Assembly (NCBI RefSeq): GCF_004364285.1
Contig: NZ_SOBE01000003.1
Location: 186,001-250,000, forward strand
DNA from: Frigoribacterium sp. PhB116
Lineage (GTDB): Bacteria > Actinomycetota > Actinomycetes > Actinomycetales > Microbacteriaceae
Reading direction: 5' to 3'
DNA: 64,000 nt
Made by a program: the position numbers and the translations under genes. The notes under the pieces were generated by a model, which did not search any database, was not told the origin of the DNA, and worked only from the letters and a program-made list of their open reading frames with translations. This document shows positions 24,796 to 42,092 of this stretch, one piece after another; positions within the stretch are counted from its first letter, which is position 1, and the number at the start of each line of letters is the position of its first letter.

Positions 24796-25494
24796 TCAGC
24801 GGCCTGGACGCCCCTCCGGCAGCCGCCGTGTGCGCACGAGCTGCGCCGCGACGTCGCGGAGCTTGACGTTGCCCTGCTGCGAGTAGCGCCGCAGCACCGC
24901 GAAGGCCTGGTCGGCGTCGAGGTCGTGGCGCTCCATGAGGATGCCCTGGGCCTGTCCGACGAGCGTGCGCGCCTCACGGACGGTCTCGAGGTCCTCGGCG
25001 GCGCGCAGGTCGACCAGTGCCACCGCGACCTGCCGCACCAGCAGCTCCAGCGAGTCGTCGTCCGCCCAGCGCCTCAGCGACCCCGCCTCAGCGGCGTAGA
25101 GCGAGAGCAGGCCGAGCGACGAGCCCCGCGCGGCGAGGGGCACGGTCAGCACGCTGCCGACTCCCTCAGCGGCGAGCGCGGCGGCCCACGCGGGCCAGCT
25201 CGGATCGTGCGCGGTGTCGTCGACGAGCACGACCCCTCCGATCTCGTCGGGGACGGTCTCGTCGGCGGCGGCCGACCCGTGCTCGTCGCGCAGCCCGTCG
25301 AGCCGCTCTCCACGCGACGACGTCGCCGCAGCCCGAGGCGCCGCGGAGCCCCCGACGTGCAGTCGCACCGCCACCTCGTCGCACCGCGTCAGCGCACGGA
25401 CGTAGCCGACGGCCCGCTGCACCGTCACCCTCAGGTCGGGCTCGGACTGCAGGTCCGCGGCGAGCGCCGCGAAGAAGGAGTCGTCCGTCGTCAC
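24796..25494 (-). CDS. GAF-ANTAR transcription antiterminator, coupled to a GT9 gene
   Basis: 232 residues from a GTG that overlaps the stop of the GT9 gene as GTGA. The GAF-like part spans about 15-165 (DEVAVRLHVGG, GVGSVLTVPLAARGSSLGLL). The ANTAR part spans about 170-228: EARTLVGQAQGILMERHDLDADQAFAVLRRYSQ, then VKLRDVAAQLV. It should act on nascent RNA by preventing termination. The tight coupling to a heptosyltransferase-like gene suggests it regulates genes of the sugar locus, or that the locus is read under the condition it senses (inference). Confidence 0.88.
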   Translation of the reverse strand: MTTDDSFFAALAADLQSEPDLRVTVQRAVGYVRALTRCDEVAVRLHVGGSAAPRAAATSSRGERLDGLRDEHGSAAADETVPDEIGGVVLVDDTAHDPSWPAWAAALAAEGVGSVLTVPLAARGSSLGLLSLYAAEAGSLRRWADDDSLELLVRQVAVALVDLRAAEDLETVREARTLVGQAQGILMERHDLDADQAFAVLRRYSQQGNVKLRDVAAQLVRTRRLPEGRPGR

Positions 25495-26471
25495 GCGCCG
25501 ATCCCGTCGAGGCTGCGCGCGACCTCCCTGGCCGCCGCGAGCACGTCGGCGGGCTGCACGGCGAGCAGGGCAGGGTCGCACTCGGTGCCGAAGGTGTCGC
25601 CGACGCGCAGGCTCGCGTCCGTGAGGACCACGTGCGGGCCGCTCGCGGGCGGGCCCCACTCCTCGGGCGGAGCAGGCCCGAAGAGCACGACCGAAGGCGT
25701 GGCGTAGGCCGAGGCCAGGTGCGCCGCCCCGGTGTCGACCGAGACCACGACGGAGGCGTCGGCCACGACCGCGGCCATCTCGGCCAGGTCGACCGTGCCG
25801 GCGAGCACGTCCGCGGCGACGACCTCGTCGTCGAGTCCGGCGAGCGCCGCGACCTCGAGCGCACGCGGCCGCTCCTTCTCGCTGCCGGTGAGCACGACCC
25901 GCCGTCCCTCCTCACGGAGCTCGCGCACGACCGTCGCGAAGCGGTCGACGGGCCAGTGCCGCGAGCCGTAGAAGGCCCCCACGTGCACGACGACCGCACC
26001 GGGCGCGGCGCTCGGCAGGTCGGGGCGGGCGATGCCGACGTCCTCCTGGTCGGCGGGCATCCCGTGCTCGCTCGCCAGCCGCGCCCAACGGTGCCGCTCG
26101 AGCACGTGGTCCTCCCACTCCGGGCCGTCCCACCCGGGGCTCGCGTGACCCAGCCGCACCCGCGGCTGCAGCTGCTCGAGCACCCCGCGGCTCTCGGGAC
26201 CGTCGCCGTGCAGGTTCATCGCCGTGTCGATCCGCCCCGGCTCGATGCCGAGCGGGTGGTCGAGCCCCGGGGTCGGCCAGAGCACGTCGATCCCCCCGAC
26301 GAGCTCGGCGACCGGCTCGAGCCAACCGGGCACGGCGAGCACCAGGCGGTGGTCGGGCCGCGAGCGGCGGATCGCGTGCAGCGCGGGCACGGCGACGAGC
26401 AGGTCGCCCAGCTTGAGGGCGCGCAGCGCCAGGAACTCGGGGGTGTCGTCCTTCTCGGGGAGGCGGTCCAT
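25491..26471 (-). CDS. Glycosyltransferase family 9 (heptosyltransferase-like), copy 1
   Basis: 326 residues starting MDRLPEKDDTPEFLALRALK. The GT9 N-terminal motif LKLGDLLVAVPALHAIRR, the central PGAVVVHVGAFYGSRHWPVDRF (H-x-G followed by K/R-x-W) and the C-terminal VVVSVDTGAAHLASAYATPSVVLFGP (D-T/S-G-x-x-H, the nucleotide-sugar site) are all present. GT9 enzymes transfer heptose from ADP-heptose in Gram-negative LPS assembly. Here the gene is divergent from the gmhB-to-hldE operon and overlaps the ANTAR regulator downstream. Confidence 0.88.
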   Translation of the reverse strand: MDRLPEKDDTPEFLALRALKLGDLLVAVPALHAIRRSRPDHRLVLAVPGWLEPVAELVGGIDVLWPTPGLDHPLGIEPGRIDTAMNLHGDGPESRGVLEQLQPRVRLGHASPGWDGPEWEDHVLERHRWARLASEHGMPADQEDVGIARPDLPSAAPGAVVVHVGAFYGSRHWPVDRFATVVRELREEGRRVVLTGSEKERPRALEVAALAGLDDEVVAADVLAGTVDLAEMAAVVADASVVVSVDTGAAHLASAYATPSVVLFGPAPPEEWGPPASGPHVVLTDASLRVGDTFGTECDPALLAVQPADVLAAAREVARSLDGIGA

Positions 26472-26578
26472 CCCGACAGCCTGCCGTGCCGGACCGCCCG
26501 CCGCCCGAACAGGAGGGCTTCGACAGAAAGGTGATCTGTGCACGTTTCGGCGGGGGCGCCTCGGGGCACGGCGCTGGC

Positions 26579-27205
26579 ATGACCTCGTCGACCCGCGCCT
26601 CCTCGTGGCCCCTCGCGGTGCCCTCGGCGGTGCTGTTCGACCGCGACGGCACGCTCGTCGTCGACGTGCCCCACAACGGCGACCCCGACCTCGTGCAGCT
26701 GGTGCCGGGGGCCGAGGAGTCGGTGGCCGCGGTCCGCGAGGCCGGCGTCGCCACCGGGGTGGTCACCAACCAGTCCGCAGTGGGCCGCGGCCTGATCACC
26801 CGCGACCAGGTCGACGACGTCGCCGCGCGGGTCGACGAGCTGCTCGGCGCGTTCGGCACCTGGGCCGTGTGCCCGCACGTCGCCGAGGACGGCTGCCGCT
26901 GCCGCAAGCCCGCCCCCGGTCTCGTGCTGCAGGCGGCGGAGACGCTCGGGGTCGACCCCGCGCACTGCGTCGTCATCGGAGACATCGGCGCGGACGTGGG
27001 CGCCGCACGCGCGGCGGGGGCGCTGGGGGTCCTCGTGCCGACCCCGGTCACGCTGCCCGCCGAGATCGCCGACGCCGACGTCGTCGCGGCCGACCTCCGC
27101 GAGGCGGTCGACCTGGCGCTCGCCCACCTGGCGCAGGTCGCGTCGCGCGCCGGCTCGGCGACGTCGCGCCTGCTTCCGTCCCCCGAGCGCGAGGCGACCT
27201 CGTGA
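26579..27205 (+). CDS. gmhB: HAD-IIIA phosphatase, GmhB-like (heptose bisphosphate)
   Basis: 208 residues. HAD motif I is VLFDRDGTLVVDVPHNGD with the nucleophile and acid Asp residues; motif II is VVTNQSAVGRG; the zinc loop CPHVAEDGCRCRKPAPG (C-x-H-x5-C-x-C) and motif IV VVIGDIGADVGAA follow. The set, including the zinc loop, is that of GmhB, which removes the 7-phosphate from heptose 1,7-bisphosphate. HisB-N phosphatases share it, but the neighbouring gmhA and hldE genes favour heptose. First gene of a six-gene operon; the next gene overlaps it by four bases. The start at 26579 lacks a strong ribosome site. Confidence 0.88.
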   Translation: MTSSTRASSWPLAVPSAVLFDRDGTLVVDVPHNGDPDLVQLVPGAEESVAAVREAGVATGVVTNQSAVGRGLITRDQVDDVAARVDELLGAFGTWAVCPHVAEDGCRCRKPAPGLVLQAAETLGVDPAHCVVIGDIGADVGAARAAGALGVLVPTPVTLPAEIADADVVAADLREAVDLALAHLAQVASRAGSATSRLLPSPEREATS

Positions 27206-28344
27206 CCCGCCGCGTCCTCGTCGCCCGCCTCGACAGCGCCGGCGACGTGCTCGTCTCGGGCCCGGCCGTGCGTGCCGTGGCCGCCGCCCCCGACACCGAG
27301 GTGACCCTGCTCTGCAGCCCGCAGGGCGCTGCCGCGGGTCGCCTCCTGCCCGGCGTCGACCGCGTGCTGACCTGGGCCGCGCCGTGGATCGTCGACCCTG
27401 CCCCCGCCGCGACCCCCGAGCACGTCGCCGCGCTGGCCGAGCTGCTCGCCGAGGCCCGCCACGACGAGGCCGTGCTGCTCACGTCGTTCCACCAGTCGCC
27501 GCTGCCGCTCGCGCTGCTGCTCCGCCTCGCCGGCGTCGAGCGGATCAGCGGAGCGAGCACCGACTACGCGGGCAGCCTGCTCGACGTGCGGCTGAAGCCC
27601 GGCGAGACCCTCGACGAGGACCAGCCCGAGCCGCTGCGCGCCCTCGCGATCGCGAGAGCTGCCGGCTTCGAGCTGCCCGCCGACGACGACGGCCGCCTCG
27701 CGGTGCTGCCCGGGCCGGACGTGTCCGAGCTGGGCATCGCCGAGCTCGGCGACCGTCCCTACGTCGTCGTCCACCCCGGCGCTGCCGTCCCGGCCCGCGC
27801 CTGGTCCCCCGAGCGCAACGCGGAGGCGGTCGTCGCCCTGGCGGCGGCCGGCTGGCGGGTGCTCGTCACGGGCTCCCCCGCCGAGGCCGAGCTGACGCGC
27901 ACCGTCGCCGGCACCGCGGGCGTCGACCTCGGCGGCCGCACCGACCTCGCCGGCCTGGCGAGCATCCTCGCCGGCGCCGCCGCGACGGTCACGGGCAACA
28001 CCGGCCCCGCGCACCTCAGCGCCGCCGTCGGCACGCCCGTCGTCAGCCTCTTCTCCCCCGTCGTCCCGGCCGGGCGCTGGGCGCCGTTCGGGGTCCCGGT
28101 CGCACTGCTCGGCGACCAGCAGGCCGCCTGCCGCGGCACGCGGGCGCGCGAGTGCCCCGTCCCCGGGCACCCGTGCCTCGGGCAGGTGACGGCGCACGAC
28201 GCCGTCGCCGCGCTCACGGACCTGGTGGGCGTGCCCGGCGCGACCTCGTCGGGGAGCGCGACCGGCGCGACCGGCGCCTCCTCGGCGCCCGCCGCCGTCC
28301 CCGACGCCATCCCGGCCCCGACCCTCGAGGAGGCGACCCGATGA
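27202..28344 (+). CDS. Glycosyltransferase family 9 (heptosyltransferase-like), copy 2
   Basis: 380 residues, GTG start inside GTGA at the end of gmhB. The GT9 layout is clear: [20 protein letters not shown] (N-terminal acceptor loop), [19 protein letters not shown] (H-P-G-A with R-x-W), and [24 protein letters not shown] (nucleotide-sugar site). The family's usual D-S/T-G-P-x-H has N-T-G-P-A-H. Late cysteines ([17 protein letters not shown]) are common in GT9. The C-terminal 35 residues are an Ala/Ser/Pro tail encoded partly by GCCTCCTC repeats. Second gene of the heptose operon. Confidence 0.88.
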
Positions 28345-29378
28345 AGATCCTGCTCTGGCACGTGCACGGCGGCTGGGCCGACGCGTTCGTCCGCGGCCGT
28401 CACGAGTACCTCCTGCCGACGACGCCCGCGGGAGGCCCGTGGGGCCTCGGCCGCGCAGGTCGCGACTGGCCGGAGAACGTCCGCGAGGTGCACCCCGACG
28501 ACCTGCGCGACGCCGGGGTCGACCTCGTCGTGCTGCAGCGGACAGACGAGCTGGCCGAGGCGGAGCGCCTCCTCGGCCGCCGGCTCGGCACCGGCGCGGG
28601 CCGCGTGCCCGCCGTGTTCGTCGAGCACAACGCCCCCCGCGAGTCCGTGCCGAACTCGGTCCACCCGCTGTCAGGTCGCGACGACGTGCTCGTCGCGCAC
28701 GTGACCGCGTTCAACTCGCTCTTCTGGGACTGCGGCGACGCACCGACCGTGACGATCGAGCACGGCGTCGTCGACCCCGGGCCCCTCTACACCGGCGAGC
28801 GCGCCCGCCTCGGCGTCGTCGTCAACGAGCCGGTGCGCCGCTGGCGGGTCACCGGCAGCGACCTGCTGCCGCGCTTCGCGGAGGCCGCCCCCCTCGACGT
28901 CTTCGGCATGGGTGCCGACGGCCTGCCCGACGCCCTCGGCCTCGGCGCCGACTCGATGACGGTGGTGGGCGACCTGCCGACCGCGCGCCTCCATCGCCGC
29001 CTCTCGGAGTGCCGCGTCTACCTGCACCCGATCCGCTGGACGTCGCTCGGCCTCTCGCTGATCGAGGCGATGCAGGCCGGGATGCCCGTCGTCGCGCTGG
29101 CCACGACCGAGGCGTACCGGGCGGTGCCGGCGCGCGCGGGGGCGGTCTCGACCGACCTCGACGTCCTGGTCCGCGCGGCCCGCGAGCTCGTCGCCGACCC
29201 CGACGCGGCCCGCGCGGCCGGCGAGGTCGCCAGGGCGCACGCGCTCGAGCGGTACGGGCTCGGACGGTTCCTGGCCGAGTGGGACGCCGTGCTGGAGGCG
29301 GTGATCGCGGACGGCCCGCGTGCTGCGGCCGGCGCGGCTGGGACGAGCACGAGCACGAACGAGAGGACGAACGCATGA
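28341..29378 (+). CDS. GT-B-fold glycosyltransferase
   Basis: 345 residues, ATG overlapping the previous stop (ATGA). It starts [17 protein letters not shown] and has [18 protein letters not shown] in the N-terminal half and [28 protein letters not shown] in the C-terminal half, the GT1/GT4 pattern where the Glu pair around LIEAM contacts the nucleotide sugar. Acceptor and donor unknown. Third gene of the heptose operon. C-terminal tail Thr/Asn/Ser-rich. Confidence 0.8.
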
Positions 29379-30685
29379 GGATCGCGATGGTCTCGGAGCA
29401 CGCCAGCCCCCTGGCCGTGCTCGGCGGCGTCGACGCCGGCGGCCAGAACGTGCACGTCGCGGAGCTGTCCGCCGCGCTCGTCCGCCGCGGGCACGACGTC
29501 GTCGTCTACACGCGGCGCGACGACGCCGGCCTGTCCGACCGGGTCGTGATGCCGTCGGGCGTCACGGTGGTCCACGTCGCGGCGGGCCCCGCCGAGCACG
29601 TGCCCAAGGACGAGCTGCTGCCCCACATGGCGGCCCTCGCCGACGGCCTCGAGCAGGCGTGGCTCGCGGACCGGCCCGACGTCGTGCACGCCCACTTCTG
29701 GATGAGCGGCGTCGCGTCGCTCGACGCCGCCCGCCGCCCCTCGGTGCGCGACGCCGGCCAGGGCAGGACGGTCCCGGTCGTGCAGACCTTCCACGCGCTC
29801 GGCCACGTCAAGCGCCGCCACCAGGGCCTCCTCGACACGAGCCCGCCCGAGCGCGCGCAGCTCGAGCCGCAGGTCGGCCGCACGGTCGACACCGTGATCG
29901 CGACCTGCTCGGACGAGGTCTTCGAGCTGCGCGGCATCGGCGTCGAGGCCGACCGCATCGACGTGGCGCCCTGCGGCGTCGACACCGCGCTCTTCACCCC
30001 CGAGGGCCCGCAGGAGGCGCGGCGCCGGCCGACGAGGATCGCCACCGTGGGCCGCCTGGTCACCCGCAAGGGCCACGGCACCGCGATCAGCGCGCTCGCC
30101 CGGCTCGTCGACGAGGGCCGCGACGTCGAGCTGCTCGTCGTCGGAGGGCCGCCGCGCGAGCGCCTCGCGGAGGACGAGACCTACCGCGCACTGGCCGCCC
30201 TGGCCGACGAGCTCGGCGTGCGCGACCGGGTCGAGTTCCGGGGCCAGGTGCCCCAGGCCGAGCTGCCGACGGTGCTCCGCTCGCTCGACGCCCTCGTCTG
30301 CGCCCCCTGGTACGAGCCGTTCGGCATCGTGCCGCTCGAGGCGATGGCCTGCGGCGTGCCCGTGGTCGCCGCCTCCGTGGGCGGGTTGATCGACACCGTC
30401 GTCGACGGGCGCACCGGGCGGCTCGTGCCGACGCGCGACCCCGAGGCGGTGGCCGGGGCACTCGGCGTCCTGGTCGACTCGCCAGCCACCGCCGCGCAGT
30501 ACGGGCGCGAGGGCCGGCGCCGTGCCCGCAGCCGCTACTCGTGGGACCGCGTCGCCGCCGGCACCGACCGCAGCTACCGGTCGACGGTCGCCCGCACGCG
30601 CGCCGCAGGCCCCGCCGGGCGCACCGACCACACCGACCGCACCGACCGCACCGACTTCGCCTCCACGAAGGGAGCCACCCTGTGA
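29375..30685 (+). CDS. Glycosyltransferase family 4
   Basis: 436 residues, ATG in an ATGA overlap. N-terminus [20 protein letters not shown] followed by [19 protein letters not shown] is the typical GT4 start, as in sucrose-phosphate synthase and MshA-like enzymes (GG-x-N-V acceptor/donor loop). The C-terminal half has [12 protein letters not shown], then [19 protein letters not shown], the E-x7-E retaining motif. The last 30 residues are low-complexity (TD repeats from a 9-base ACCGACCGC tandem). It probably adds a sugar in retaining mode to the product of this locus. Fourth gene of the operon. Confidence 0.9.
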
Positions 30686-31440
30686 CCTCGCTCGTCCGCA
30701 CCCGGCCGATCACGATCGTGCGCACGGCCACGAGCCCGGCAGAGCGGGCCGCGCCCGACGCACCACCGATCACGGGACCAGCGGCGGCGACGGCGACGGC
30801 TGCGCCCGCGCCCGCGCTCGACCTCGCCGAGGTCGTCCGTGAGCACCTCGTCACCCTCGACCCCGTGCTGCGGGCGCTCCGCGACGAGGCCGAGCACCTC
30901 CGCGACTGGGGCGTGGAGCTCGCCGAGCGGCTCTGCGGGGGCGCCCGCCTGCTCGCCGCCGGCAACGGGGGCTCGGCCGCCGAGGCCCAGCACCTCACGA
31001 GCGAGTTCGTCGGACGGTTCGCCGCGGACCGCCCCTCCTTCTCGGCCATCTCGCTGCACGCCGAGTCGAGCGCGGTGACCGCGATCGGCAACGACTACGG
31101 CTACGAGCAGGTCTTCGCCCGCCAGGTGCGCGGCCACGGACGCGAGGGCGACGTGCTCGTGCTGCTCTCGACGAGCGGCGCCAGCAGCAACCTGATCGAG
31201 GCCGCCGAGGCCGCCCGCGGGATCGGCGTGACGACCTGGGCGCTGACCGGCCCCGGGCCGAACCCGCTCTCGTCCGCCTGCGACGACGCGATCACGCTGC
31301 CCGGCCCCTCGTCGAACGTGCAGGAGGCGCAGCTCGTCGCCGTGCACGCCCTCTGCCTCGTGTTCGACGCGGAGGTGGAGCGCACCGGGTCGACCGGTCC
31401 CGACCGTGCGGGGCTGCGTCCCGCGGGGGCGCGCCCGTGA
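30682..31440 (+). CDS. gmhA: SIS-domain phosphoheptose isomerase, GmhA-like
   Basis: 252 residues, GTG in a GTGA overlap. After an Ala/Pro/Thr-rich N-terminal extension of about 45 residues, absent from ordinary GmhA (about 190 residues), the GmhA signature appears: [20 protein letters not shown], then GRF, then [20 protein letters not shown] and [15 protein letters not shown]. It should convert sedoheptulose 7-phosphate to a heptose 7-phosphate, the first step toward activated heptose. Fifth gene of the operon. Confidence 0.9.
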
Positions 31441-32888
31441 GCGGCGGCGTGCGCGGAGGCGGCGGCATGCGCGGCGGCGGCGGGATCGTCGTCGTCGGGG
31501 ACGCCCTGCTCGACGTCGACGTGGTCGGCACCGCGACTCGCCTCAGCCCCGACGGCCCCGTGCCCGTGCTCGACGTGTCGTCGCGCACCACGAGGGCAGG
31601 AGGCGCTGGCCTGGTGGCCGCGATGCTCGCCCTCGACGGCACGGCCGTGCGCCTGGTCACGGCCCTGTCCGACGACGCCGGCGCCGACGACCTGCGACGT
31701 GCCCTCGGCGCCGTGCCCGTCGTCGCGGGCGACCTGCGCGCGGGCACCCCCACCAAGACCCGCGTGCGCGCCGAGGGCGGGCACGCGATCGCCCGCGTCG
31801 ACGACCACTGCGGCGCCGCCCCCGCGCCGCTCGTCACCGACGAGATGGTCGACGCCGTGCTCTCGGCCGACGTCGTCGTCGTCGCCGACTACGGCCGCGG
31901 CCTGACCGGTGTCCAGCGGCTGCGCGAGGCGCTGCGACAGGTCGCCGAGCGCGGCACGCCGGTCGTCTGGGACCCGCACCCGAAGGGCTCCCCTCCCGTC
32001 GTCGGCTGCACGGTCGTCACCCCCAACCAGGGCGAGGCCTCCGCGCTGCACGGCTCGGTCGTCGGCGACGTCGCCTCGGCCGGCGCCGTCGCGGGCGACC
32101 TCCGCGACCGGTGGCAGGTCGGAGCCGTCGCCGTGACCCTCGGCGCACGCGGGGCGGTGCTCGCCACGACAGGGTCCGCCGGCGTGCCCGCTCACGTGCC
32201 GGCGCCCTCCGTCGACTCGGCCGACCCGTGCGGCGCAGGCGACCGGCTGGCGTCCGCCCTCGCGGTGGCGCTCCACGGCGGCTCGTCGCTCGACGAGGCC
32301 CTGGCGACGGCGGTGCGGTCGGCGGCGTGGTTCCTCGGCGCGGGCGGGGTCGCGGTGCTCGACCTGGAGGCGCTGCGGTCCGGGACGGGCGCCGGGTCCG
32401 AGCCCGCGCCTCCTGCGCCCGTCGCCCTCCCCGGCGTCGACGCCCTGGCCGTCGCGCGACGGGTGCGCGCCGAGGGCGGCACGGTCGTCGCGACCGGCGG
32501 CTGCTTCGACCTCCTGCACGCCGGCCACGCGCGCACCCTCGCGGGCGCCCGCGCCCTCGGCGACTGCCTGATCGTGTGCCTCAACAGCGACCAGTCGGTC
32601 ACGCGGCTCAAAGGGCCCGAGCGGCCGATCATGTCGCAGGGCGACCGCGTCGACCTGCTGCTCGCGCTCGAGTGCGTCGACGCCGTGGTCGTCTTCGACG
32701 AGGATACCCCGCACGCCGTGCTCGACCGCGTCCGGCCCGACCTATGGGTGAAGGGCGGGGACTACTCCGCCGACACCCTGCCGGAGGCCTCGCTCGTGGC
32801 CGGCTGGGGAGGGCGCACCGTCACGGTGCCGTTCCACCCCGGGCGGTCGACGACGAGGCTCGCGTCGGCGCTGGAGCGCGTGGGCTGA
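31437..32888 (+). CDS. hldE: Bifunctional HldE-like kinase/nucleotidyltransferase, copy 1
   Basis: 483 residues, GTG in a GTGA overlap; the first 18 residues are Gly-rich. The PfkB kinase half (about 18-320) has VVVGDALLDVDVVG, DPHPKG, VVTPNQGEAS and DPCGAGDRLASALA, with catalytic Asp in GAGD. The nucleotidyltransferase half (about 345-480) has ATGGCFDLLHAGHARTL (HxGH motif) and VKGGDYSADTLPE. HldE phosphorylates heptose 7-phosphate at C1 and activates the product with ATP. The kinase first motif is degenerate compared with copy 2. Sixth and last gene of the operon. Confidence 0.88.
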   Translation: MSGGVRGGGGMRGGGGIVVVGDALLDVDVVGTATRLSPDGPVPVLDVSSRTTRAGGAGLVAAMLALDGTAVRLVTALSDDAGADDLRRALGAVPVVAGDLRAGTPTKTRVRAEGGHAIARVDDHCGAAPAPLVTDEMVDAVLSADVVVVADYGRGLTGVQRLREALRQVAERGTPVVWDPHPKGSPPVVGCTVVTPNQGEASALHGSVVGDVASAGAVAGDLRDRWQVGAVAVTLGARGAVLATTGSAGVPAHVPAPSVDSADPCGAGDRLASALAVALHGGSSLDEALATAVRSAAWFLGAGGVAVLDLEALRSGTGAGSEPAPPAPVALPGVDALAVARRVRAEGGTVVATGGCFDLLHAGHARTLAGARALGDCLIVCLNSDQSVTRLKGPERPIMSQGDRVDLLLALECVDAVVVFDEDTPHAVLDRVRPDLWVKGGDYSADTLPEASLVAGWGGRTVTVPFHPGRSTTRLASALERVG

Positions 32889-32968
32889 CCCGCGCCTCCT
32901 CGTCGTCGCCCGTGCACCGGGCCGCCCGCGCCGCACGACACCCATGTCCCTCACGGAAGGAACCACCC

Positions 32969-33909: not shown

Positions 33910-34914
33910 ATGGAATTCAGGTACCTCGGCAACTCAGGACTCAAGGTCTCCGAGCTCACGTTCGGCAACTGGCTGACCCACGGCTCGCAGGTCGAGAACG
34001 ACACGGCGACCGCGTGCGTGCGCGCCTCGCTCGACGTCGGGATCTCGACCTTCGACACGGCCGACGTCTACGCGAACACGCAGGCGGAGGTCGTGCTCGG
34101 CGAGGCGCTGAAGGGCGAGCGCCGCGAGTCGGTCGAGATCTTCACCAAGGTCTACGGCCCGACCGGCCCCAAGGGCCACAACGACACCGGCCTCAGCCGC
34201 AAGCACGTCACCGAGTCGATCAACGGCTCGCTGAGGCGGCTCCAGACGGACTACGTCGACCTGTACCAGGCGCACCGCTACGACGTCGAGACTCCCCTCG
34301 AGGAGACGATGGAGACGTTCGCCGACCTGGTCCGCCAGGGCAAGGTGCTGTACATCGGCGTCTCCGAGTGGAACGCCGAGCAGCTGCGCGAGGCGCACGC
34401 GCTCGCCCGTGAGCTCAAGATCCAGCTCGTCTCGAACCAGCCCGAGTACTCGCTGCTCTGGCGGGTCATCGAGGAGGAGGTCGTCCCGGCCTCGAAGGAG
34501 CTCGGCATCTCGCAGATCGTCTGGTCGCCCGTCGCCCAGGGCGTGCTCACCGGCAAGTACACCAAGGGCGGCGAGCTGCCCTCGGGCAGCCGGGCCACCG
34601 ACCAGAAGGGCGGCGCCGCGATGATCGAGCGCTGGATGGGCGACGACGTGCTCGACGCCGTGGCCCAGCTGAAGCCGGTCGCGGACGACCTCGGCCTCAC
34701 GCAGGCGCAGCTGTCGCTGGCCTGGGTGCTGTCCAACGAGAACGTCGCGTCGGCGATCATCGGGGCCTCGCGTCCGGAGCAGGTCGAGTCGAACGCGAAG
34801 GCGTCGGGCGTCGTGCTCGAGGCCGACGTGCTCGCGAAGATCGAGTCGATCTTCGAGGGGCTCGCGGAGACCGACCCCCGCAAGACGCAGATGCCCGCCG
34901 GCCGCGAGGTCTAG
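33910..34914 (+). CDS. Aldo/keto reductase (potassium-channel beta-subunit-like)
   Basis: 334 residues starting MEFRYLGNSGLKVSELTFGN. The catalytic tetrad is present: Asp and Tyr in FDTADVYANTQAE, Lys in IFTKVYGP and His in LYQAHRYD. The C-terminal IIGASRPEQVESNAKAS is the NADPH site. The pattern LSRKHVTESINGSLRRLQTDYVDLYQ resembles KCNAB-type reductases. It uses NADPH on aldehydes or ketosugars. It has its own ribosome site (AAGGAGAACC) and lies within the heptose region, so a role there is possible but unproven. Related to the gene at 53515. Confidence 0.9.
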   Translation: MEFRYLGNSGLKVSELTFGNWLTHGSQVENDTATACVRASLDVGISTFDTADVYANTQAEVVLGEALKGERRESVEIFTKVYGPTGPKGHNDTGLSRKHVTESINGSLRRLQTDYVDLYQAHRYDVETPLEETMETFADLVRQGKVLYIGVSEWNAEQLREAHALARELKIQLVSNQPEYSLLWRVIEEEVVPASKELGISQIVWSPVAQGVLTGKYTKGGELPSGSRATDQKGGAAMIERWMGDDVLDAVAQLKPVADDLGLTQAQLSLAWVLSNENVASAIIGASRPEQVESNAKASGVVLEADVLAKIESIFEGLAETDPRKTQMPAGREV

Positions 34915-35049: not shown

Positions 35050-35223
35050 ATGTCCATCGGAGACAAGGCCAAGGACGCAGTGCAGAAGGCAGCCGGACAC
35101 GTGGAGGAGGCCGTCGGCAAGAAGACCGACGACGCCGAGCTCACTGCTCAGGGCCAGAAGGACAAGTCGATGAGCGAGGACCGTCTCGCCACCGAGCGCG
35201 CCAAGGACGGCGACCAGCACTGA
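35050..35223 (+). CDS. CsbD-family small stress protein
   Basis: 57 residues starting MSIGDKAKDAVQKAAGHVEE and ending KDGDQH, highly charged (Lys, Glu, Asp), with a strong AGGAGGAGG ribosome site. CsbD proteins are small, soluble and often general-stress induced; their exact function is unknown. A 15-base perfect hairpin follows, so it forms its own unit. The GGAGG purine run at the ribosome site is among the strongest in the window. Confidence 0.85.
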   Translation: MSIGDKAKDAVQKAAGHVEEAVGKKTDDAELTAQGQKDKSMSEDRLATERAKDGDQH

Positions 35224-35262
35224 CCCACCCGGACGCCGACACGTCGAGCGTCCACCCCGGTC

Positions 35263-35294
35263 CGAGCCCGGCACCTGCACAGGTGCCGGGCTCG
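35263..35294. terminator. Perfect 15-base hairpin after the CsbD gene
   Basis: CGAGCCCGGCACCTG and its complement (35263-35277, 35280-35294) separated by two bases. Confidence 0.8.
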
Positions 35295-35331
35295 CCTGCT
35301 GCCCGGGCCCGGCTCGGCGTGGCGCGCGGCT

Positions 35332-35416
35332 CCGCAGATGCCGACCGCACGCGCTGCGATACGGGGACATCCGGGTACGACGGACAGTGATCGACGCGAA
35401 CGGTCGGCATCTGCGG
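35332..35416. repeat. Intergenic palindromic repeat, copy A
   Basis: Perfect 16-base arms (35332-35347, CCGCAGATGCCGACCG, and 35401-35416) enclose 53 bases. Nearly the same arms with a 51-base interior occur at 55635-55719. Both interiors contain ACGGGGA. It lies between the CsbD hairpin and the epimerase gene. Confidence 0.75.
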
Positions 35417-35455
35417 GCCGAGCGGGTGTCGGGGGCGAGCCGTACGGTGAGGGGC

Positions 35456-36364
35456 ATGAGCGACCACGCCGAGCCCGACGCCGCCCGCCTCCGAGGAGCA
35501 CGCTGGGCCGTGACCGGCGCCGCGGGCCGCATCGGGGTGCACCTCCGCTCCGCGCTGCACGAGCTCGGCGTCGAGCTCGTCTCGACCGACGTCGTCGAGG
35601 TGCCGCCGGTCGGGGGCGACGCCGTCGTGCCCGACGCCGCCAGGCCCGACGCCGCCCCGGGCCCGGCCGCCGAGCGGCGCGAGGTCGTCGACGTCGCCGA
35701 CCTCGAGGCCCTCACCGAGCTCTTCGCGGGCTGCGACGGCGTCGTCCACCTGGGCGGCATCAGCGACGAGGCGGACTTCCACGACCTGGCCACGGTGAAC
35801 GTGGTGGGCACCTACCACGTGCTCGAGGCGGCCCGCCGGGCAGGGGTCGGCCGGGTGGTCTTCGCGAGCAGCAACCGCCTCACGGGCTCGTACGACACCG
35901 ACACGACCGTCGACGTCGGCATGCCGCCGCGACCCGACGGCTTCTACGGCGTCTCGAAGGTCGCGGGCGAGGCGCTCTGCCGCCTCTACTCGGACAAGTT
36001 CGGGCTGAGCACGGTCTCCGTCCGCATCGGGAGCTGGGGCGAGGCCCCGGAGGACACCCGCCACCTGCACACCTGGCTCAGCGAGCCGGACGGGGTGCGC
36101 GCGTTCGTCGCCGCCATGACCACCGACGTGCAGGTCGCCGTGTTCTACGCCGTGTCGGCCAACGCCGAGGGGTGGTGGGACCTCGCGGCAGGCGAGGCCG
36201 TCGGCTTCCGGCCGCAGGACGACGCCTCGACGGTCGTCGACGGCCCCCTGCCCGAGCCCGCCGGCACCGTCCCTCCCGGAACCGGGGAGCCGGCCGAGCC
36301 CGCGGGTCCCCAGGGCGGGCCCTTCGCCTCCTCGACCTTCTCGCTGGACCGCATGACGCGCTGA
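35456..36364 (+). CDS. NAD-dependent epimerase/dehydratase (extended SDR)
   Basis: 302 residues from an ATG seven bases after TACGGT (leaderless pattern). N-terminus WAVTGAAGRIGVHLRSAL carries the TGxxGxxG cofactor loop; DGVVHLGGIS and the active site VFASSNRLTGSYDTD (with Ser and the following FYGVSKVAGE, YxxxK) follow. The spacing and GFYGVSK resemble uronate dehydrogenases and UDP-glucose 4-epimerases. In this locus it is one of several candidates to act as the missing nucleotide-heptose epimerase (HldD role), but the active-site context is nearer to uronate dehydrogenase. C-terminus is Pro/Gly-rich. Confidence 0.82.
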   Translation: MSDHAEPDAARLRGARWAVTGAAGRIGVHLRSALHELGVELVSTDVVEVPPVGGDAVVPDAARPDAAPGPAAERREVVDVADLEALTELFAGCDGVVHLGGISDEADFHDLATVNVVGTYHVLEAARRAGVGRVVFASSNRLTGSYDTDTTVDVGMPPRPDGFYGVSKVAGEALCRLYSDKFGLSTVSVRIGSWGEAPEDTRHLHTWLSEPDGVRAFVAAMTTDVQVAVFYAVSANAEGWWDLAAGEAVGFRPQDDASTVVDGPLPEPAGTVPPGTGEPAEPAGPQGGPFASSTFSLDRMTR

Positions 36365-36390
36365 GCGACGCCTTCACCGCGACCTCCCGC

Positions 36391-37650
36391 TCAGGACCGG
36401 GCTTCCTGGACGGGGAGAGACGTGCCGCGGCCCGCGAGCACACCGTCGAGCAGCTCCCGGGTGTTCTCCCACACCTCGTCGAGCCCCACCCCGTCGACGA
36501 CGCTCGCGTCGTGCTCGCAGCGCTCCGCCGTCCAGCCGACCTGGGTGATGTCGACTCCGCACACCGGACACGACGTGCTGAACGCCATCGCGACACGGTG
36601 GCTCGTGCGGCCGAGGGCACCCGCGTTGATCACGTTGCCGAACCAGAAGACCGCGCTCGTCGCCGTCCCGACGGCCTCGGCCACGTGCCGGGGCCCGCTG
36701 TCGTTCCCGACGAAGGCGTCGACCGACGCGAGCACGCCCACGAGGCCGGAGAGGTCGAGCTGCCCCGCCAGCGACGACACGAGGGAGGCGCGGCTCGGCT
36801 GGCGCTCGTGGGCCACGGTCGTGACGCGGTCGGCCAGTGCCACGTCGTCGCCCTCGCCGACGACCACGACCCGCACGCCGTGGTGCGCGAGGCGAGCGGC
36901 GAGCTCGCCGAACCGGTCGGCCGACCACCGCCTCCTCGGGTCGCTCGCCCCGGGGTGGATCGCGACGACCGGGCGCCCGTCTCCGCCGGCCGACGTGCCG
37001 GCCGGACCACCGCCGACGAGCGCCGCCCCGCGGCCCCGCTCGGCCCGGGTCGGCGAGAGCACCGGACGCCCCGACGAGGAGGCGCCGGCGAGCGCCACGA
37101 CCTCGAGGGCGCGCAGCACCTCGTGCTGGTAGTAGACGTAGGGGATCGTGCGCTCGAGCGGGATCGCGTCGGGGGTCCGCGTGCCGATCGTGTGCCGGGC
37201 GCCGAGCCGGTGCAGGAACGGGTTCGAGTTGCGTCCCCCGCCGTGCACCTGCACGGCCAGGTCGTAGCGGCGCGCACGGTGGCGAGCGACGAACTCCTCG
37301 GTGGCGACGGCGTCGACCTCGGTGCCCGACGCGTCGCCGACGCCCGGGACGACGGGGAGCACGTCGACCTCGTCGACGCCGGAGGTACGTCCGGCGAGCA
37401 GGGCCCGGTGGACGGGCGAGCCGAGCAGCGTGAGGCGGGCCGCGGGGTACGCCTCGGCGAGCGCCTCGATCGCAGGCAGGGCGAAGACGAGGTCGCCGAT
37501 GCCTCCGCCACGGAGGACGGCGATCTCGTGGACATCGTCGAAGCGCGGGTGCAGCTCCGGCAGGCCGGGGACGGGCTGGGACGACGCGGGACGGTCGGGG
37601 GCCGGGCGGGCGAGTGCCGGACGGGCGGGTGCGGTGGTGTCGGGCTGCAC
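36391..37650 (-). CDS. Glycosyltransferase family 9 (heptosyltransferase-like), copy 3
   Basis: 419 residues, GTG start after GAGAGGACCCC. A Pro/Ala leader of about 40 residues precedes IAVLRGGGIGDLVFALPAIEA (GT9 start). VVAIHPGASDPRRRWSADRF (H-P-G-A with R-x-W) and VDAFVGNDSGPRHVAEAVGT (D-S-G-P-x-H, donor site) follow. A C-terminal CPVCGVDITQVGWTAERC segment adds four cysteines, possibly a metal site. It is convergent with the epimerase gene and divergent from the aldehyde dehydrogenase, so it is transcribed separately from copy 2. Confidence 0.9.
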   Translation of the reverse strand: MQPDTTAPARPALARPAPDRPASSQPVPGLPELHPRFDDVHEIAVLRGGGIGDLVFALPAIEALAEAYPAARLTLLGSPVHRALLAGRTSGVDEVDVLPVVPGVGDASGTEVDAVATEEFVARHRARRYDLAVQVHGGGRNSNPFLHRLGARHTIGTRTPDAIPLERTIPYVYYQHEVLRALEVVALAGASSSGRPVLSPTRAERGRGAALVGGGPAGTSAGGDGRPVVAIHPGASDPRRRWSADRFGELAARLAHHGVRVVVVGEGDDVALADRVTTVAHERQPSRASLVSSLAGQLDLSGLVGVLASVDAFVGNDSGPRHVAEAVGTATSAVFWFGNVINAGALGRTSHRVAMAFSTSCPVCGVDITQVGWTAERCEHDASVVDGVGLDEVWENTRELLDGVLAGRGTSLPVQEARS

Positions 37651-37826
37651 GGGGTCCTCTCTCTCGTCGGTCCCCTGCCCTGCGCGCCTCGTGGCCAAAC
37701 GCCCTCCTCCTCGCCCTCCTCCTCTTCCTGCGCCGTCCGCCCCCGGCACCCCACCCCGACGCCGACCACGTGTGAGGCGCGCCGAGCCGGGGTAGGGCAC
37801 GAGCACCGACACGAGAGGACGCCTCC

Positions 37827-39563
37827 ATGACGACCTGGGCCCCTGGCACCCGCCCCGACGACGCCGTCGACGCGCGCCCGCACGACGACGTCGCGCCCGA
37901 CGACGCGCACGACCACCGGCCCGGCCCCGCCGTCGGCAGGTCGGCGGCCGGCGGCGTGCTGACCGTCCTCGACCCCAGCGACGGGTCGACGGTGGGCGAG
38001 ATCCGCGAGGCCGACCGCGACGAGGTCGTCGAGGCCGTGCGCCGGGCGAGGGCCGCCCAGCACGGCTGGGAGCGCACGCCCGCCGCGGACCGCGGCGCCC
38101 AGCTGCACGGCGCCGCCGCGGCCCTCCGCGAGCACGCCGCCGAGCTCGCCGCGCTCAACCAGCGCGAGACCGGCAAGCCGTTCGACGACTCCCTCGGCGG
38201 GGTGCTCGCCGGTGCCGACACCCTGCGCCAGTACGCCGAGCTCGGGCCCGTGCACCGCGGCCTCAGCCTCGTCGGGGGCCGAGAGTCCGCCGACTTCACG
38301 ATCGACCAGCCCCGGGGCGTCGTCGCGGCGATCACCCCCTGGAACGACCCCGTCGCCGTCGCCTGCGGCCTGATCGGTGCCGCGCTCGTCACGGGCAGCA
38401 CGGTCGTGCACAAGCCGAGCGAGCGCTGCCCGCACGTCGGCGAGCTGCTCGGCCGCGTGCTCGCCGAGACGCTGCCGCCCGACGTGCTCGTCACCGTCTC
38501 GGGAGGCGGCGGCGTGGGCGCCGCGCTCACCGAGCAGCCGGGCGTCGACGCCGTCGCCCACGTCGGCTCGACCGCGACGGGCCGGCGCATCGCGCGCATG
38601 GCCGCGCTGACCGGCGCCCACGTCGTGCTCGAGAACGGCGGCAACGACGCCCTCATCGTCGACGGCGACGTCGACCCCGTCTGGGCGGCGGAGCAGGCGG
38701 CGATCGGCTCGTTCGCCAACGCGGGCCAGATCTGCACCAGCGTGGAGCGCATCTTCGTGCACCGGGACGTCGCCGCCGCATTCGTCGAGGCGCTCGTCGC
38801 CGAGGCGGCCCGGCGCCACGACCGGCTCGAGATGGGCCCGCTCGTCGACGCCCGCCTCCGTGCCGAGGTGCAGCGCCAGGTCGACGAGGCCGTCGCCGAC
38901 GGGGCGACGGTCGAGATCGGCGGCACGACCCCCGAGGGCCCGGGGTCGTGGTGGCCCGCCACGGTGCTGACGGGCTGTCGGCCGCACATGACGATCATGC
39001 AGGAGGAGACCTTCGGCCCCGTCGCCCCCGTGCAGGTCGTCGACGACTTCGACGAGGCCCTGCGCCTCGCCTGCCACGACCGCCACGGGCTCGCGGCGAC
39101 CGTGCTCACGGGCTCGATCGCGCACGCGAACCGGGCTCTGGCCGACCTGCCCGTCGGCACCGTCAAGATCAACGCCGTCTTCGGCGGAGCACCGGGCGGA
39201 TCAGCCCAGCCGCGCGGCGAGAGCGGCTCCGGCTACGGCTACGGCCCCGAGCTGCTCGACGAGCTGACGCTGACGAAGGTCGTGCACTACGGGGTCCCCG
39301 TGCTCGCGGCCGACGGCGGGCACCAGGAGGTGCGGGGCACCTCCTCGGCACCGCTCGCCGCGGGCGACCAGGTCGGGGGCCAGGACTCGGCCGAGGCGCC
39401 GCACGGCGCCGCCACGACCGGCACCTCCACAGGCCGCACCCGGCACCCGCAGGAGCCCGCCGAGGGCGGCGACCCCGACGACACGGCGCACACCGGCACC
39501 GGCAGGGGTGAGGACGACGCCGAGCCCCGCGTGCACCCCTCCTCCCCCGCCGAGGGCGACTGA
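37827..39563 (+). CDS. Aldehyde dehydrogenase
   Basis: 578 residues, longer than the usual 480-500 because of a His/Asp-rich N-terminal extension (about 45 residues) and a low-complexity C-terminal tail (about 70). Catalytic Glu lies in VLENGGNDALI (GGN replaces the more common LGGK/N), the nucleophile Cys in SFANAGQICTSVERIF, and cofactor contacts in ITPWNDPVAVACG and HKPSE. It oxidises an aldehyde with NAD(P)+. It is immediately followed, two bases after its stop, by the second hldE-like gene, so it is probably part of the heptose pathway or of sugar-acid formation. Confidence 0.85.
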   Translation: MTTWAPGTRPDDAVDARPHDDVAPDDAHDHRPGPAVGRSAAGGVLTVLDPSDGSTVGEIREADRDEVVEAVRRARAAQHGWERTPAADRGAQLHGAAAALREHAAELAALNQRETGKPFDDSLGGVLAGADTLRQYAELGPVHRGLSLVGGRESADFTIDQPRGVVAAITPWNDPVAVACGLIGAALVTGSTVVHKPSERCPHVGELLGRVLAETLPPDVLVTVSGGGGVGAALTEQPGVDAVAHVGSTATGRRIARMAALTGAHVVLENGGNDALIVDGDVDPVWAAEQAAIGSFANAGQICTSVERIFVHRDVAAAFVEALVAEAARRHDRLEMGPLVDARLRAEVQRQVDEAVADGATVEIGGTTPEGPGSWWPATVLTGCRPHMTIMQEETFGPVAPVQVVDDFDEALRLACHDRHGLAATVLTGSIAHANRALADLPVGTVKINAVFGGAPGGSAQPRGESGSGYGYGPELLDELTLTKVVHYGVPVLAADGGHQEVRGTSSAPLAAGDQVGGQDSAEAPHGAATTGTSTGRTRHPQEPAEGGDPDDTAHTGTGRGEDDAEPRVHPSSPAEGD

Positions 39564-39564
39564 C

Positions 39565-41175
39565 GTGGCGGGCCCGATCGACCTCGGCCAGGTCCGGGGG
39601 CTGAGCCCCGAGGTGGTGCGCGCCCTGCGCGACGCCGCCCCGGTCGTCAGCGTCGTCGGCGACCTCGTGCTCGACGGCTGGTGGCAGGGCACGACCGAGC
39701 GCATGACGCGCGAGGCTCCCGTGCCCGTCGTCGAGGTGGCCGACCGCCGGTTCGTGCCGGGCGGCGCCGCCAACACGGCGGTCAACCTCGCCGCCCTGGG
39801 CGCGCGGGTGCGGCTCGCGGGGATCGTCGGCGACGACGAGGCCGGCCGACGGCTCACCGAGCTGCTCGCCTCGCACGGCGTCGACACCACGGGAGTGGTG
39901 CGCGTGCGCGGCCGTGCCACCGTCGCGAAGAACCGGGTGCTCGTCGACGACCAGGTGCTCATCCGGCTGGACGACGTGGAGTCGGAGCCCGCGCCGGCCG
40001 CCTCCCTCGCGCTGCTCGCCGAGGCCGCGCTGGCGCAGGCCCACGGCGCCGACGCCGAGCTCGTCTGCGACTACGCCTCCGGGTGCCTCACCGGCCTCGT
40101 GCTCGACGCCCTCGTCGCCCGGCCCGCCGCCGACCGCCCCCCGCTCGTCGTGGTCGACGCGCACGACCTCGCTCCCTGGGCGCGGCTGCGGCCCGACCTC
40201 GTCACGCCGAACGCGGGCGAGAGCGGGGCCCTCGCGGGGATCGCGATCGGCGACTCGCTGCCCACCGACGTCCGCGTCGAGCGCGTCGAGGCCGCCGCCT
40301 CCTCGTTGCTCGAGCGCTCGGGGGCGGGCGCCGTCGTCGCGACGCTCGACCACGACGGGTCGATGCTGCTCGTGCACGGCGGCGCGACGGCGGGTCAGCC
40401 CGACGTCGCCCTCGACCGCGGCGACGGCAGCCCGCAGGAGGCGCGGGTGCAGCACCGGACCTGGGCGCGCCGGGCGCGCGAGCGGCAGGCCTCCGGCGCG
40501 GGCGACTCGTTCGTCGCCGCGCTGACCGTCGGACGGGCAGCCGGCCTCCCGCTGACGACGAGCGTCGACCTGGCGCAGGCGGCGGCGGACGTCGTCGTGC
40601 GGCGCTTCGGCACCTCCGTGTGCTCGACGGACGACCTCGTCGGGCACGTCGACCGCACCGGCGACCTCATGCTGGGCCTGGACGAGCTGGCGCGCCGGCT
40701 CGACGAGGAGCGGGCGGCGGGCCGACGCGTCGTCCTCACGAACGGCTGCTTCGACGTGCTGCACCGAGGCCACACCACCTACCTGACGCAGGCGAAGCAG
40801 CTCGGGGACGTGCTCGTCGTCGCGCTCAACGACGACGACTCGACCCGGCGTCTCAAGGGCCCCGGCCGACCGATCAACGCGCTGGCCGACCGGGCCGGCG
40901 TGCTGTCCGCGCTGAGCTGCGTCGACTACGTCACGTCGTTCGCCACGGACACGCCGATCCCCCTGATCCGTCGCGTCCGACCCGACCTCTACGCGAAGGG
41001 CGGCGACTACACGCCGCAGATGCTCGAGGAGACGGCCTCGGTCGTCGAGGGAGGCGGCGAGGTGCGCATCCTCGACTACGTCGCCGACCACTCGACGACG
41101 GGCATCGTCGACCGCATCCGCCAGTCGCACGGCGCCGGCGCCGATGGCGACGGCCCGGGACGGGGACGCGCGTGA
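39565..41175 (+). CDS. hldE: Bifunctional HldE-like kinase/nucleotidyltransferase, copy 2
   Basis: 536 residues from a GTG two bases after the aldehyde dehydrogenase stop. Kinase half (about 1-350): VVSVVGDLVLDGWWQG, REAPVPVVEVADRRFVPGGA with AANTAVNLAALGA (the RfaE-type sugar-phosphate site), RLDDVE, and ASGAGDSFVAAL. Nucleotidyltransferase half (about 390-525): LTNGCFDVLHRGHTTYL (HxGH), LKGPGRPINALADRA and KGGDYTPQMLEET. This copy is closer to canonical HldE than copy 1. Having two copies suggests different substrates or a split of activities. The glycosyltransferase after it overlaps by four bases. Confidence 0.92.
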   Translation: MAGPIDLGQVRGLSPEVVRALRDAAPVVSVVGDLVLDGWWQGTTERMTREAPVPVVEVADRRFVPGGAANTAVNLAALGARVRLAGIVGDDEAGRRLTELLASHGVDTTGVVRVRGRATVAKNRVLVDDQVLIRLDDVESEPAPAASLALLAEAALAQAHGADAELVCDYASGCLTGLVLDALVARPAADRPPLVVVDAHDLAPWARLRPDLVTPNAGESGALAGIAIGDSLPTDVRVERVEAAASSLLERSGAGAVVATLDHDGSMLLVHGGATAGQPDVALDRGDGSPQEARVQHRTWARRARERQASGAGDSFVAALTVGRAAGLPLTTSVDLAQAAADVVVRRFGTSVCSTDDLVGHVDRTGDLMLGLDELARRLDEERAAGRRVVLTNGCFDVLHRGHTTYLTQAKQLGDVLVVALNDDDSTRRLKGPGRPINALADRAGVLSALSCVDYVTSFATDTPIPLIRRVRPDLYAKGGDYTPQMLEETASVVEGGGEVRILDYVADHSTTGIVDRIRQSHGAGADGDGPGRGRA

Positions 41176-42092
41176 GCGGCAGCCGGCGCTGGTCGGGGGC
41201 GTGGGCGTCGGCGTCGGGATCGGTCCTCGACGCGCAGGGGGCGCCTCCTGCGCTCGTCGACGTGCTCGTGCCCACCGCCGACCGCCCGGCAGAGCTGGCG
41301 GTCACGCTCGCCGGGCTCGCCGCCCAGGACGACCCGCCGTTCTCGGTCGTGGTCAGCGACCAGTCCGAGGGCGAGCCCGACTGGGCGCACCCGGCGGCGC
41401 AGGCCATGGTGCGGGTGCTGCGCGCGCAGGGACGCTCCGTCGAGACGCACGTCCACCTGCCGCGTCGGGGCCTCGCCGAGCACCGCCAGTCGCTGCTCGA
41501 GCGGGCGACGGCACCCGAGGTGCTGTTCCTCGACGACGACGACGTCTGGCTCGAGCCCGGCGCTCTCCACCGGATGCACGACGCCCTGGACCGGCTCGGC
41601 TGCGGCTTCGTCGGCTCGGCGGTGCAGGGCCTGTCGTACCTGGACGACGTCCGGCCGCACGAACGGGAGGCCTTCGAGCTCTGGTCCGGGGAGGTGCTGC
41701 CCGAGCGCGTCCGGCGGGACACGCCCGCGTTCTCCCGCTGGCGGCTGCACAACGCCGCGAACCTCGTCCACGAGGCGGCTCGGCTCGGCGTGCCCGAGGG
41801 CGACTGGGAGGCCTACCGGGTGGCCTGGGTCGGGGGCTGCGCGCTGTACCGCAGGGACGTCCTGCTCGAGGCCGGCGGCTTCGGGTTCTGGGACGACCTG
41901 CCGCGCGACCACGCGGGCGAGGACGTCGCCGCCCAGTGGCGCGTCATGCAGGCACGAGGAGGCGCGGGCATCGTCCCCAGCGGTGCCGTCCACCTCGAGG
42001 CGCCCACCACCGTGGAGCGCCGCGACGTCGAGGCGACAGACCTGGTCGACCTCGACACCCCGGCCGGACCCGGCCGGGCCACCCCGAGATGA
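41172..42092 (+). CDS. Glycosyltransferase family 2
   Basis: 306 residues, GTG in a GTGA overlap with hldE. The GT-A core is visible: VDVLVPTADRPAELAVTLAG, VVVSDQSEG, and the metal-binding aspartate cluster in VLFLDDDDVWLEPG. A later VAWVGGCALYRRDVLLEAGG and FWDDLPRDHAGEDVA (E/D-D acceptor motif) fit inverting GT2 enzymes. As the last enzyme gene of the aldehyde dehydrogenase-hldE unit it probably transfers the activated sugar made here, or another sugar, to the same product. Confidence 0.85.
   Translation: MSGSRRWSGAWASASGSVLDAQGAPPALVDVLVPTADRPAELAVTLAGLAAQDDPPFSVVVSDQSEGEPDWAHPAAQAMVRVLRAQGRSVETHVHLPRRGLAEHRQSLLERATAPEVLFLDDDDVWLEPGALHRMHDALDRLGCGFVGSAVQGLSYLDDVRPHEREAFELWSGEVLPERVRRDTPAFSRWRLHNAANLVHEAARLGVPEGDWEAYRVAWVGGCALYRRDVLLEAGGFGFWDDLPRDHAGEDVAAQWRVMQARGGAGIVPSGAVHLEAPTTVERRDVEATDLVDLDTPAGPGRATPR

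Follow-up and report, generated by a model that had tools for sequence, protein, structure and literature searches.

The locus at positions 25491-42301 of a 64,000-nucleotide stretch of the Frigoribacterium sp. PhB116 genome (contig NZ_SOBE01000003.1, positions 186,001 to 250,000; hereafter the window, whose positions serve as coordinates throughout) is in our reading, to which we give a probability of about 0.7, an actinobacterial heptose-glycan cluster of the cwg type, the product of which would be a heptose-containing cell-envelope glycan or glycolipid. According to Pfam and NCBIfam it encodes a GmhB, a GmhA, two bifunctional HldE proteins, three GT9 and three other glycosyltransferases (GT), a short-chain dehydrogenase/reductase (SDR), an aldehyde dehydrogenase (ALDH) and a DUF2795 protein. 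A first-pass annotation of the window had recognized the heptose enzymes and the glycosyltransferases at 25491-42092 and had regarded their host as free of lipopolysaccharide (LPS). Both points agree with our results, which place a complete predicted pathway from sedoheptulose 7-phosphate to nucleoside diphosphate (NDP)-heptose, together with several enzymes of the heptosyltransferase family, in a genome in which LpxC was not found (the control was recovered in 4 of 14).

Organization of the locus

The core of the locus is a run of six plus-strand genes, gmhB-GT9b-GTx-GT4-gmhA-hldE1, linked by five four-base overlaps (GTGA or ATGA). From such overlaps the first-pass annotation had concluded that the products are made in stoichiometric amounts; the overlaps do join the six genes, but this conclusion goes too far, as they suggest translational coupling only. 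The core is extended by a second module, GT9c-ALDH-hldE2-GT2, and two further four-base overlaps link hldE2, GT2 and the small DUF2795 gene (42089..42301, plus strand; PF11387, 1.9e-20). GT9a and GT9c are on the minus strand, opposite to the core run, and 59 bases (26472-26530) separate GT9a from gmhB. The SDR gene (32969..33718, plus; PF00106, 3.6e-39) lies 3' of hldE1 and the ALDH gene (37827..39563, plus; PF00171, 5.6e-115) adjoins hldE2; these two, the DUF2795 gene, and the genes for an aldo/keto reductase (AKR) and a uronate-dehydrogenase-like SDR had been overlooked.

A predicted pathway for heptose synthesis and transfer

The motif counts given below refer to alignment rows drawn from 92 loci (matches with >75% coverage and without an early stop), which before adding the window numbered 35 for gmhA, 43 for gmhB, 74 for hldE1, 52 for hldE2, 67 for GT9a, 76 for GT9b and 42 for GT9c. 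The SIS/GmhA-like product of gmhA (30682..31440, plus), a predicted sedoheptulose-7-phosphate isomerase, scored 139.6 bits with TIGR00441 (cut-off 209.45), matched solved phosphoheptose isomerases (PDB 2xbl, 2.8e-36) and belongs to a set of rows keeping AQH...E in 35/35. The HAD-IIIA/GmhB-like protein (26531..27205, plus) matched the heptose bisphosphate phosphatase PDB 4pnh (4.4e-20), and the beta model NF006506 (105.2 bits; cut-off 178) outscored the alpha model NF050049 (37.6 bits), both scores being under cut-off. It carries DRDGT and CxH..CxC; DxD and CxH..CxC were each found in 43/43 rows, and we take the motif residues of GmhA and GmhB to have the functional roles usually given to them.

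HldE1 (31437..32888, plus) and HldE2 (39565..41175, plus) are predicted heptose-7-phosphate kinases/heptose-1-phosphate nucleotidyltransferases. Both matched the fused HldE model NF008454 (1.1e-80 and 4.9e-107, respectively), each under its cut-off; with rfaE_dom_II (cut-off 181.5) HldE2 reached 186.4 bits and HldE1 181.3, that is, 0.2 bits short. The kinase GAGD motif was kept in 75/75 HldE1 and 52/53 HldE2 rows (one has GGGD), HxGH in all rows of both, and the kinase domains within the locus are of the PfkB type by Pfam. The genome holds two SIS_2 matches, of which GmhA is the stronger; the second, on another contig, reached 22.5 bits by itself and, when its neighbours were included, 31, which exceeds the cut-off of 27.

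All of the genome's GT9 matches (3/3) are at the locus. GT9a (25491..26471, minus; ATG start 26471, alternative GTG 26543) matched PF01075 (3e-23), its best NCBIfam model being heptsyl_trn_I (84.3 bits; cut-off 185.3). GT9b (27202..28344, plus) matched PF01075 (4.2e-22) and the WaaC structure 2gt1 (1.8e-8), and GT9c (36391..37650, minus) matched PF01075 (8.1e-22 on the longer open reading frame, ORF) and TIGR02195 (58.6 bits; cut-off 134.6). The equivalent of WaaC D13 was present in every row (GT9a 68/68, GT9b 77/77, GT9c 43/43). In 77/77 GT9b rows Asn replaces the equivalent of WaaC D261, which hints at a different substrate contact; the roles of D13 and D261 are those that we presume for WaaC. 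GTx (28341..29378, plus; PF13692, 1.4e-9), which we used as cluster marker, is a compact GT-B (GT4-type) glycosyltransferase: its AlphaFold model (predicted local distance difference test, pLDDT, 88.5; best Foldseek match 6kih, E 2.1e-10) has the predicted GT-B fold of GT4 enzymes. For GT4 (29375..30685, plus) the nearest solved structure is MshA (PDB 3c4q, 1.8e-54), yet the protein scored 244.1 bits with the MshA model TIGR03449 against a cut-off of 462.5, and GT2 (41172..42092, plus) is a GT2-type enzyme (PF13641, 8.6e-10). Judged from these family and structure matches and the intact motifs, the enzymology proposed in the first pass appears sound.

We therefore propose the following pathway. 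GmhA would convert sedoheptulose 7-phosphate to D-glycero-D-manno-heptose 7-phosphate, an HldE kinase domain would form the beta-1,7-bisphosphate and GmhB would take off the 7-phosphate. The D,D form would serve as donor, a prediction made because no HldD was found over cut-off: none of the 40 genomes examined, own genome included, passed TIGR02197 (controls, 2/14 over). Relatives under the cut-off occurred in 40/40, the best match in the own genome being 91.5 bits versus 274.6. The gene at 35387-36364, considered as a candidate epimerase of the HldD type, was rejected; its product is uronate-dehydrogenase-like, scored 22.7 bits versus the cut-off of 274.6, and is present in congeners without the cluster. 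At the inner membrane face the three GT9 enzymes would add heptoses and GTx, GT4 and GT2 other sugars, and the resulting envelope glycan or glycolipid would be exported by a route encoded elsewhere.

The same four chemical steps are thus predicted as in the Gram-negative ADP-heptose pathway (GmhA, HldE, GmhB and HldD, followed by WaaC/WaaF), with which the locus also shares a fused kinase-nucleotidyltransferase HldE and GT9 enzymes with the WaaC D13 equivalent. The window genome differs in lacking LpxC and an HldD over cut-off and in having two HldE groups, and its gene order is unlike that of the E. coli hldE and waa regions.

Gram-negative bacteria also heptosylate proteins from ADP-heptose, as described in sections of PMC10948575 and PMC11461863, and the GT9 enzymes could act in the same manner on surface proteins, like autotransporter heptosyltransferases. 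Clustering of the neighbouring genes gave many groups, of which two large opposite-strand ones looked like antisense frames, and 10 members were scanned by Pfam. That no polymer export gene appeared among the scanned neighbours would suit protein heptosylation. However, a set of six glycosyltransferases of different types is in keeping with a longer glycan, and no surface-protein gene was recognized in the neighbour groups scanned, most groups being outside the scan. We consider protein heptosylation improbable.

Correspondence with the cwg operon of Streptomyces

The cwg operon is said to have been described in Streptomyces by Hong in 2002. A portion of PMC5839063 names SCO6180-6188 of S. coelicolor as cwgB, C, D, E, G, H (phosphoheptose isomerase), I (bifunctional synthase/transferase) and J. 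The relevant part of PMC6767563 presents SCO6179-6190 as the cwg operon for a predicted cell wall glycan, states that it depends partly on sigma-E and that vancomycin induces it, and gives the promoter sequence. Searching 199 genomes of one genus for this promoter gave four matches, three with one mismatch, one (G576) with two and none exact; three of the four (L191, L192 and L193) were read downstream. About 4 kb 3' of the promoter, L191 and L193 contain gmhB-GT9b-GTx-GT4-gmhA-hldE1-GT9a, the GT9b and hldE1 matches of L191 each being split in two pieces. The HldE1 of L193 clusters with the Streptomyces rows (support 100), hence our label 'Streptomyces-type'. Because the cwg promoter leads to the same gene run (gmhB-like, GT9, GT, GT4, gmhA, hldE) in these two loci, and the published gene list has its phosphoheptose isomerase and bifunctional synthase/transferase in corresponding order, the window core is probably of the cwg type.

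The first-pass annotation had held that the make-up of known actinobacterial heptose gene sets is different. This does not stand, as the core has the cwg gene order and GTx occurs in 40 of 396 genomes of the phylum (own genome included, as in the family counts below; the tally includes weaker matches, 38-44% identity, and one fragment). The window differs from the cwg operon in adding GT9c-ALDH-hldE2-GT2-DUF2795, and the promoter-proximal genes of the operon, as they appear in L191 and L193 (encoding a ~350-aa protein, a carbamoyltransferase and a further protein), have no relatives in the window. For comparison we used the best 80 of 584 confirmed relatives from a scan of named genomes, a set biased to close relatives in which some loci are clipped at contig ends. 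A carbamoyltransferase group was found in 8 of these 80 named loci (Pfam check of one member) and has relatives in L191 and L193, in both of which a gene near the promoter is related to the carbamoyltransferase gene of the S. megasporus locus; none was found among the window proteins scanned by Pfam. These genes (L123 5451-7166, L191 12661-14352, L193 2194-3834) belong to Streptomyces-type and Streptosporangiaceae loci. Heptose carbamoylation is known from Pseudomonas LPS, and by analogy the linked carbamoyltransferase might carbamoylate heptose.

The operon type itself is already known. We found no description of the cluster as a heptose pathway in the open-licence literature searched; the word heptose is absent from the available text of PMC6767563 and PMC13011467, and no word in that of PMC5839063 begins with it, the table there having 'phosphoheptose isomerase'. 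The newer points are the two old HldE groups, their difference at the STTR5 motif, the second module and the empty site in congeners; tests would be worthwhile for the arrangement with two HldE proteins and for the connection to cwg across the phylum.

Two other actinobacterial systems bear on the nature of the product. The mycobacterial gmhA/gmhB/hddA set shares with the window a GmhA and a GmhB-type phosphatase; it differs in that HddA is a GHMP-type kinase, whereas the window has PfkB-type kinase domains and a GmhB favouring the beta model. Tridomain actinobacterial NDP-heptose enzymes have reportedly been described by Tang in 2018 and 2022. With the NDP-heptose synthetases of septacidin and hygromycin B biosynthesis the locus has in common the predicted formation of NDP-heptose from sedoheptulose 7-phosphate in an actinobacterium, and differs from them in that didomain HldE proteins and a separate GmhA are found in a glycosyltransferase-rich cluster. 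Gram-positive producers of these antibiotics use ADP-heptose, as stated in a section of PMC9704527, and in the window oxidoreductases (SDR and ALDH) adjoin the hldE genes, as could be expected if the product were a secreted heptoside or a heptose-bearing natural product. We regard this as unlikely, although slightly less so than protein heptosylation: no assembly-line genes were found in the 10 neighbour-group members scanned, the named loci belong to seven families with an HldE tree that mostly follows families, and in Streptomyces the counterpart is under sigma-E, as an envelope-stress target.

Conservation of the cluster in Actinomycetota

The first-pass annotation had suggested a search for the order of the core genes. 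The order gmhB-GT9b-GTx-GT4-gmhA-hldE1 recurs on one strand in 69 of the 80 named loci, which cover 7 families, and chance is thereby excluded as its explanation; the marker GTx was found in 26 of 150 genomes of the family, which belong to 18 of 85 genera. GT9b-GTx-GT4 adjoin in 25 of 30 phylum loci, own locus included. Among the named loci GT4 is present in 79, GT9b and gmhA in 77 each, and gmhB and hldE1 in 75 each. The SDR accompanies the core in 71 of 80 (70 at >=50% identity) and is the next plus-strand gene 3' of hldE1 in 64 of the 69 with full core order. A minus-strand ORF at 32821-33585, considered as a conserved unknown gene on account of matches to several relatives, proved to be an antisense shadow of this SDR gene. 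GT9a was found in 61 of 80, in some families at 43-51% identity and placed elsewhere, and the second module is less constant (hldE2 47, ALDH 46, GT9c 39, GT2 16, DUF2795 4). In L041, L045, L047 and L059, GTx (mostly with GT4) was observed without a gmhB or GT9 match within 1.5 kb flanks, and GTx may have a function unrelated to heptose. The cluster is thus conserved and not unusual in Actinomycetota.

Among 15 congeners, both HldE genes were found in two (G002 and G007) and neither was matched in 13. The AKR and uronate-dehydrogenase-like genes of G001 and G008 adjoin Asp23-sigma-ADH, and the 19.5 kb read there contained no match to a heptose gene of the window, save a generic SDR at 32%. As these genomes keep the flanking genes without the heptose genes, the site appears empty in congeners. 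In the window these two genes separate the core from the second module. The AKR (33910..34914, plus; PF00248) shares 99.1% identity with its counterpart in G001 and 97.6% with that in G008, and the uronate-dehydrogenase-like SDR (35387..36364, plus; PDB 6mfh, 1e-49) is 84% identical in both; because they are also found in congeners without the cluster, both are probably bystanders. The congener loci L194, L195 and L196 show the same two genes beside Asp23/sigma, with heptose genes absent there, and the position of the AKR within the cluster differs between the window and G002. The G007 cluster adjoins the same sigma/Asp23 flank as the window; in G002 the sigma gene and the cluster are on different contigs, which implies that the place of the cluster is not fixed. 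G023 has hldE2-ALDH-GT2 with a single HldE match, and GTx ~17 kb off.

Two HldE groups and their predicted nucleotide use

A tree of 129 HldE rows, built by a quick method with Shimodaira-Hasegawa-like approximate likelihood ratio test (SH-aLRT) support only and one Gram-negative row (E. coli HldE), recovered one actinobacterial group for HldE1 (75 rows) and another for HldE2 (53 rows, support 97), both mostly following families; the named HldE1 rows nearest to the window are from Microbacteriaceae. A GT9 tree was built from 106 of 190 rows. HldE1 and HldE2 thus appear to be two old groups. As presence is patchy while the trees follow taxonomy, we infer that repeated loss, more than recent transfer, suits the distribution of the cluster. 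Annotation names such as heptosyltransferase I/II, and the position of E. coli HldE on a long branch at the HldE2 side of the tree, might lead one to see here a recent transfer of Gram-negative LPS-core genes. With each HldE group actinobacterial and its families mostly together, in a tree containing a single Gram-negative sequence, with no LpxC and with GTx relatives across the phylum, we disfavour such a transfer as very improbable.

Tang and colleagues, in parts of PMC11573728 and PMC11461863, relate the motif (F/L)XXGRSTT (STTR5) to heptose nucleotidyltransferases for which CTP and UTP are further substrates, and report that CDP- and UDP-heptose give stronger ALPK1 responses in cells. Window HldE1, with FHPGRSTT, has the motif, while HldE2 has YVADHSTT at this position, with H in place of Arg. 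The fifth-position Arg was found in 72/75 HldE1 rows and 17/53 HldE2 rows, and the strict motif in 20/75 and 0/53, respectively; the split at STTR5 is therefore not uniform across HldE2. Because one HldE is promiscuous without the motif (a section of PMC11461863), the use of several nucleoside triphosphates by HldE1 is a prediction.

The two old, separate groups, their difference at STTR5 and the association of HldE2 with ALDH could also mean that the two enzymes act on different sugars or nucleotides and that one of the two does not handle heptose. This seems doubtful, given that for both proteins the best-matching NCBIfam models are heptose-specific ones and that both retain kinase and nucleotidyltransferase motifs. 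As a more speculative extension of the cwg-type reading, we tentatively consider that the cwg operon encodes a D,D-heptose glycan pathway found throughout the phylum, and that in Micrococcales-type and some Pseudonocardiaceae lineages two old HldE paralogs divide the use of nucleotides between them. Of these, HldE1 (STTR5) would provide ADP-, CDP- and UDP-heptose, and HldE2 a separate ADP-heptose pool for the GT9c-ALDH-GT2 branch. We hold this to be possible, although rather less likely than its contrary.

Neighbouring genes and possible regulation

A sigma-70-family gene group was found in 34 of the 80 named loci, 29 of them from Micrococcaceae (one member Pfam-checked; in the example L064 6530-7384, regions 2, 3 and 4 were recognized). 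In 23 of the 34 the gene converges with GT9a from the 3' side of the latter, at a distance of <=1 kb; in two it is further off and nine have no GT9a match. In the window, a GAF-ANTAR regulator gene (24796..25494, minus; PF03861 and PF01590 on the longer ORF) begins with GTG at 25494, and this start shares 4 bases with the end of GT9a at its stop codon. It also adjoins GT9a in congener G002, and its product is a possible antiterminator. Together with the sigma-E control in Streptomyces, the sigma-70 and GAF-ANTAR neighbours would fit a stress-regulated envelope component, although they are not proof of it.

Weight of the evidence and biological meaning

Several observations weigh against the assignment of the locus to a cwg-type heptose glycan. 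The core order is not shown by 11 of the 80 named loci, and the operon 3' of the cwg promoter in L192 (G560) matches the window in GT4 only, from which it follows that promoter and heptose genes can part. L192 looks like a natural partial loss. The correspondence with cwg is drawn through relatives of the Streptomyces type, together with the published promoter and gene list of S. coelicolor. Among the heptose-specific NCBIfam models, a cut-off was passed only by the HldE2 nucleotidyltransferase domain; the 10 neighbour-group members scanned contained no flippase, polymerase or ligase; and we found no measured heptose in the product of such clusters.

In summary, the heptose-glycan reading of the Frigoribacterium locus suggests a specific chemical product for the cwg operon, namely a D,D-heptose glycan; in the relevant part of PMC6767563 the product is described as only predicted. 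The core of this operon occurs across Actinomycetota. The same reading leads to the prediction that ADP-heptose, and perhaps CDP-/UDP-heptose, agonists sensed by vertebrate ALPK1, are present in many LPS-free Gram-positives. The relevance to ALPK1, raised in the first pass, is chemically plausible. Furthermore, if the split-donor, phylum-wide proposal were true, many LPS-free actinobacteria would be regular sources of strong ALPK1 agonists.

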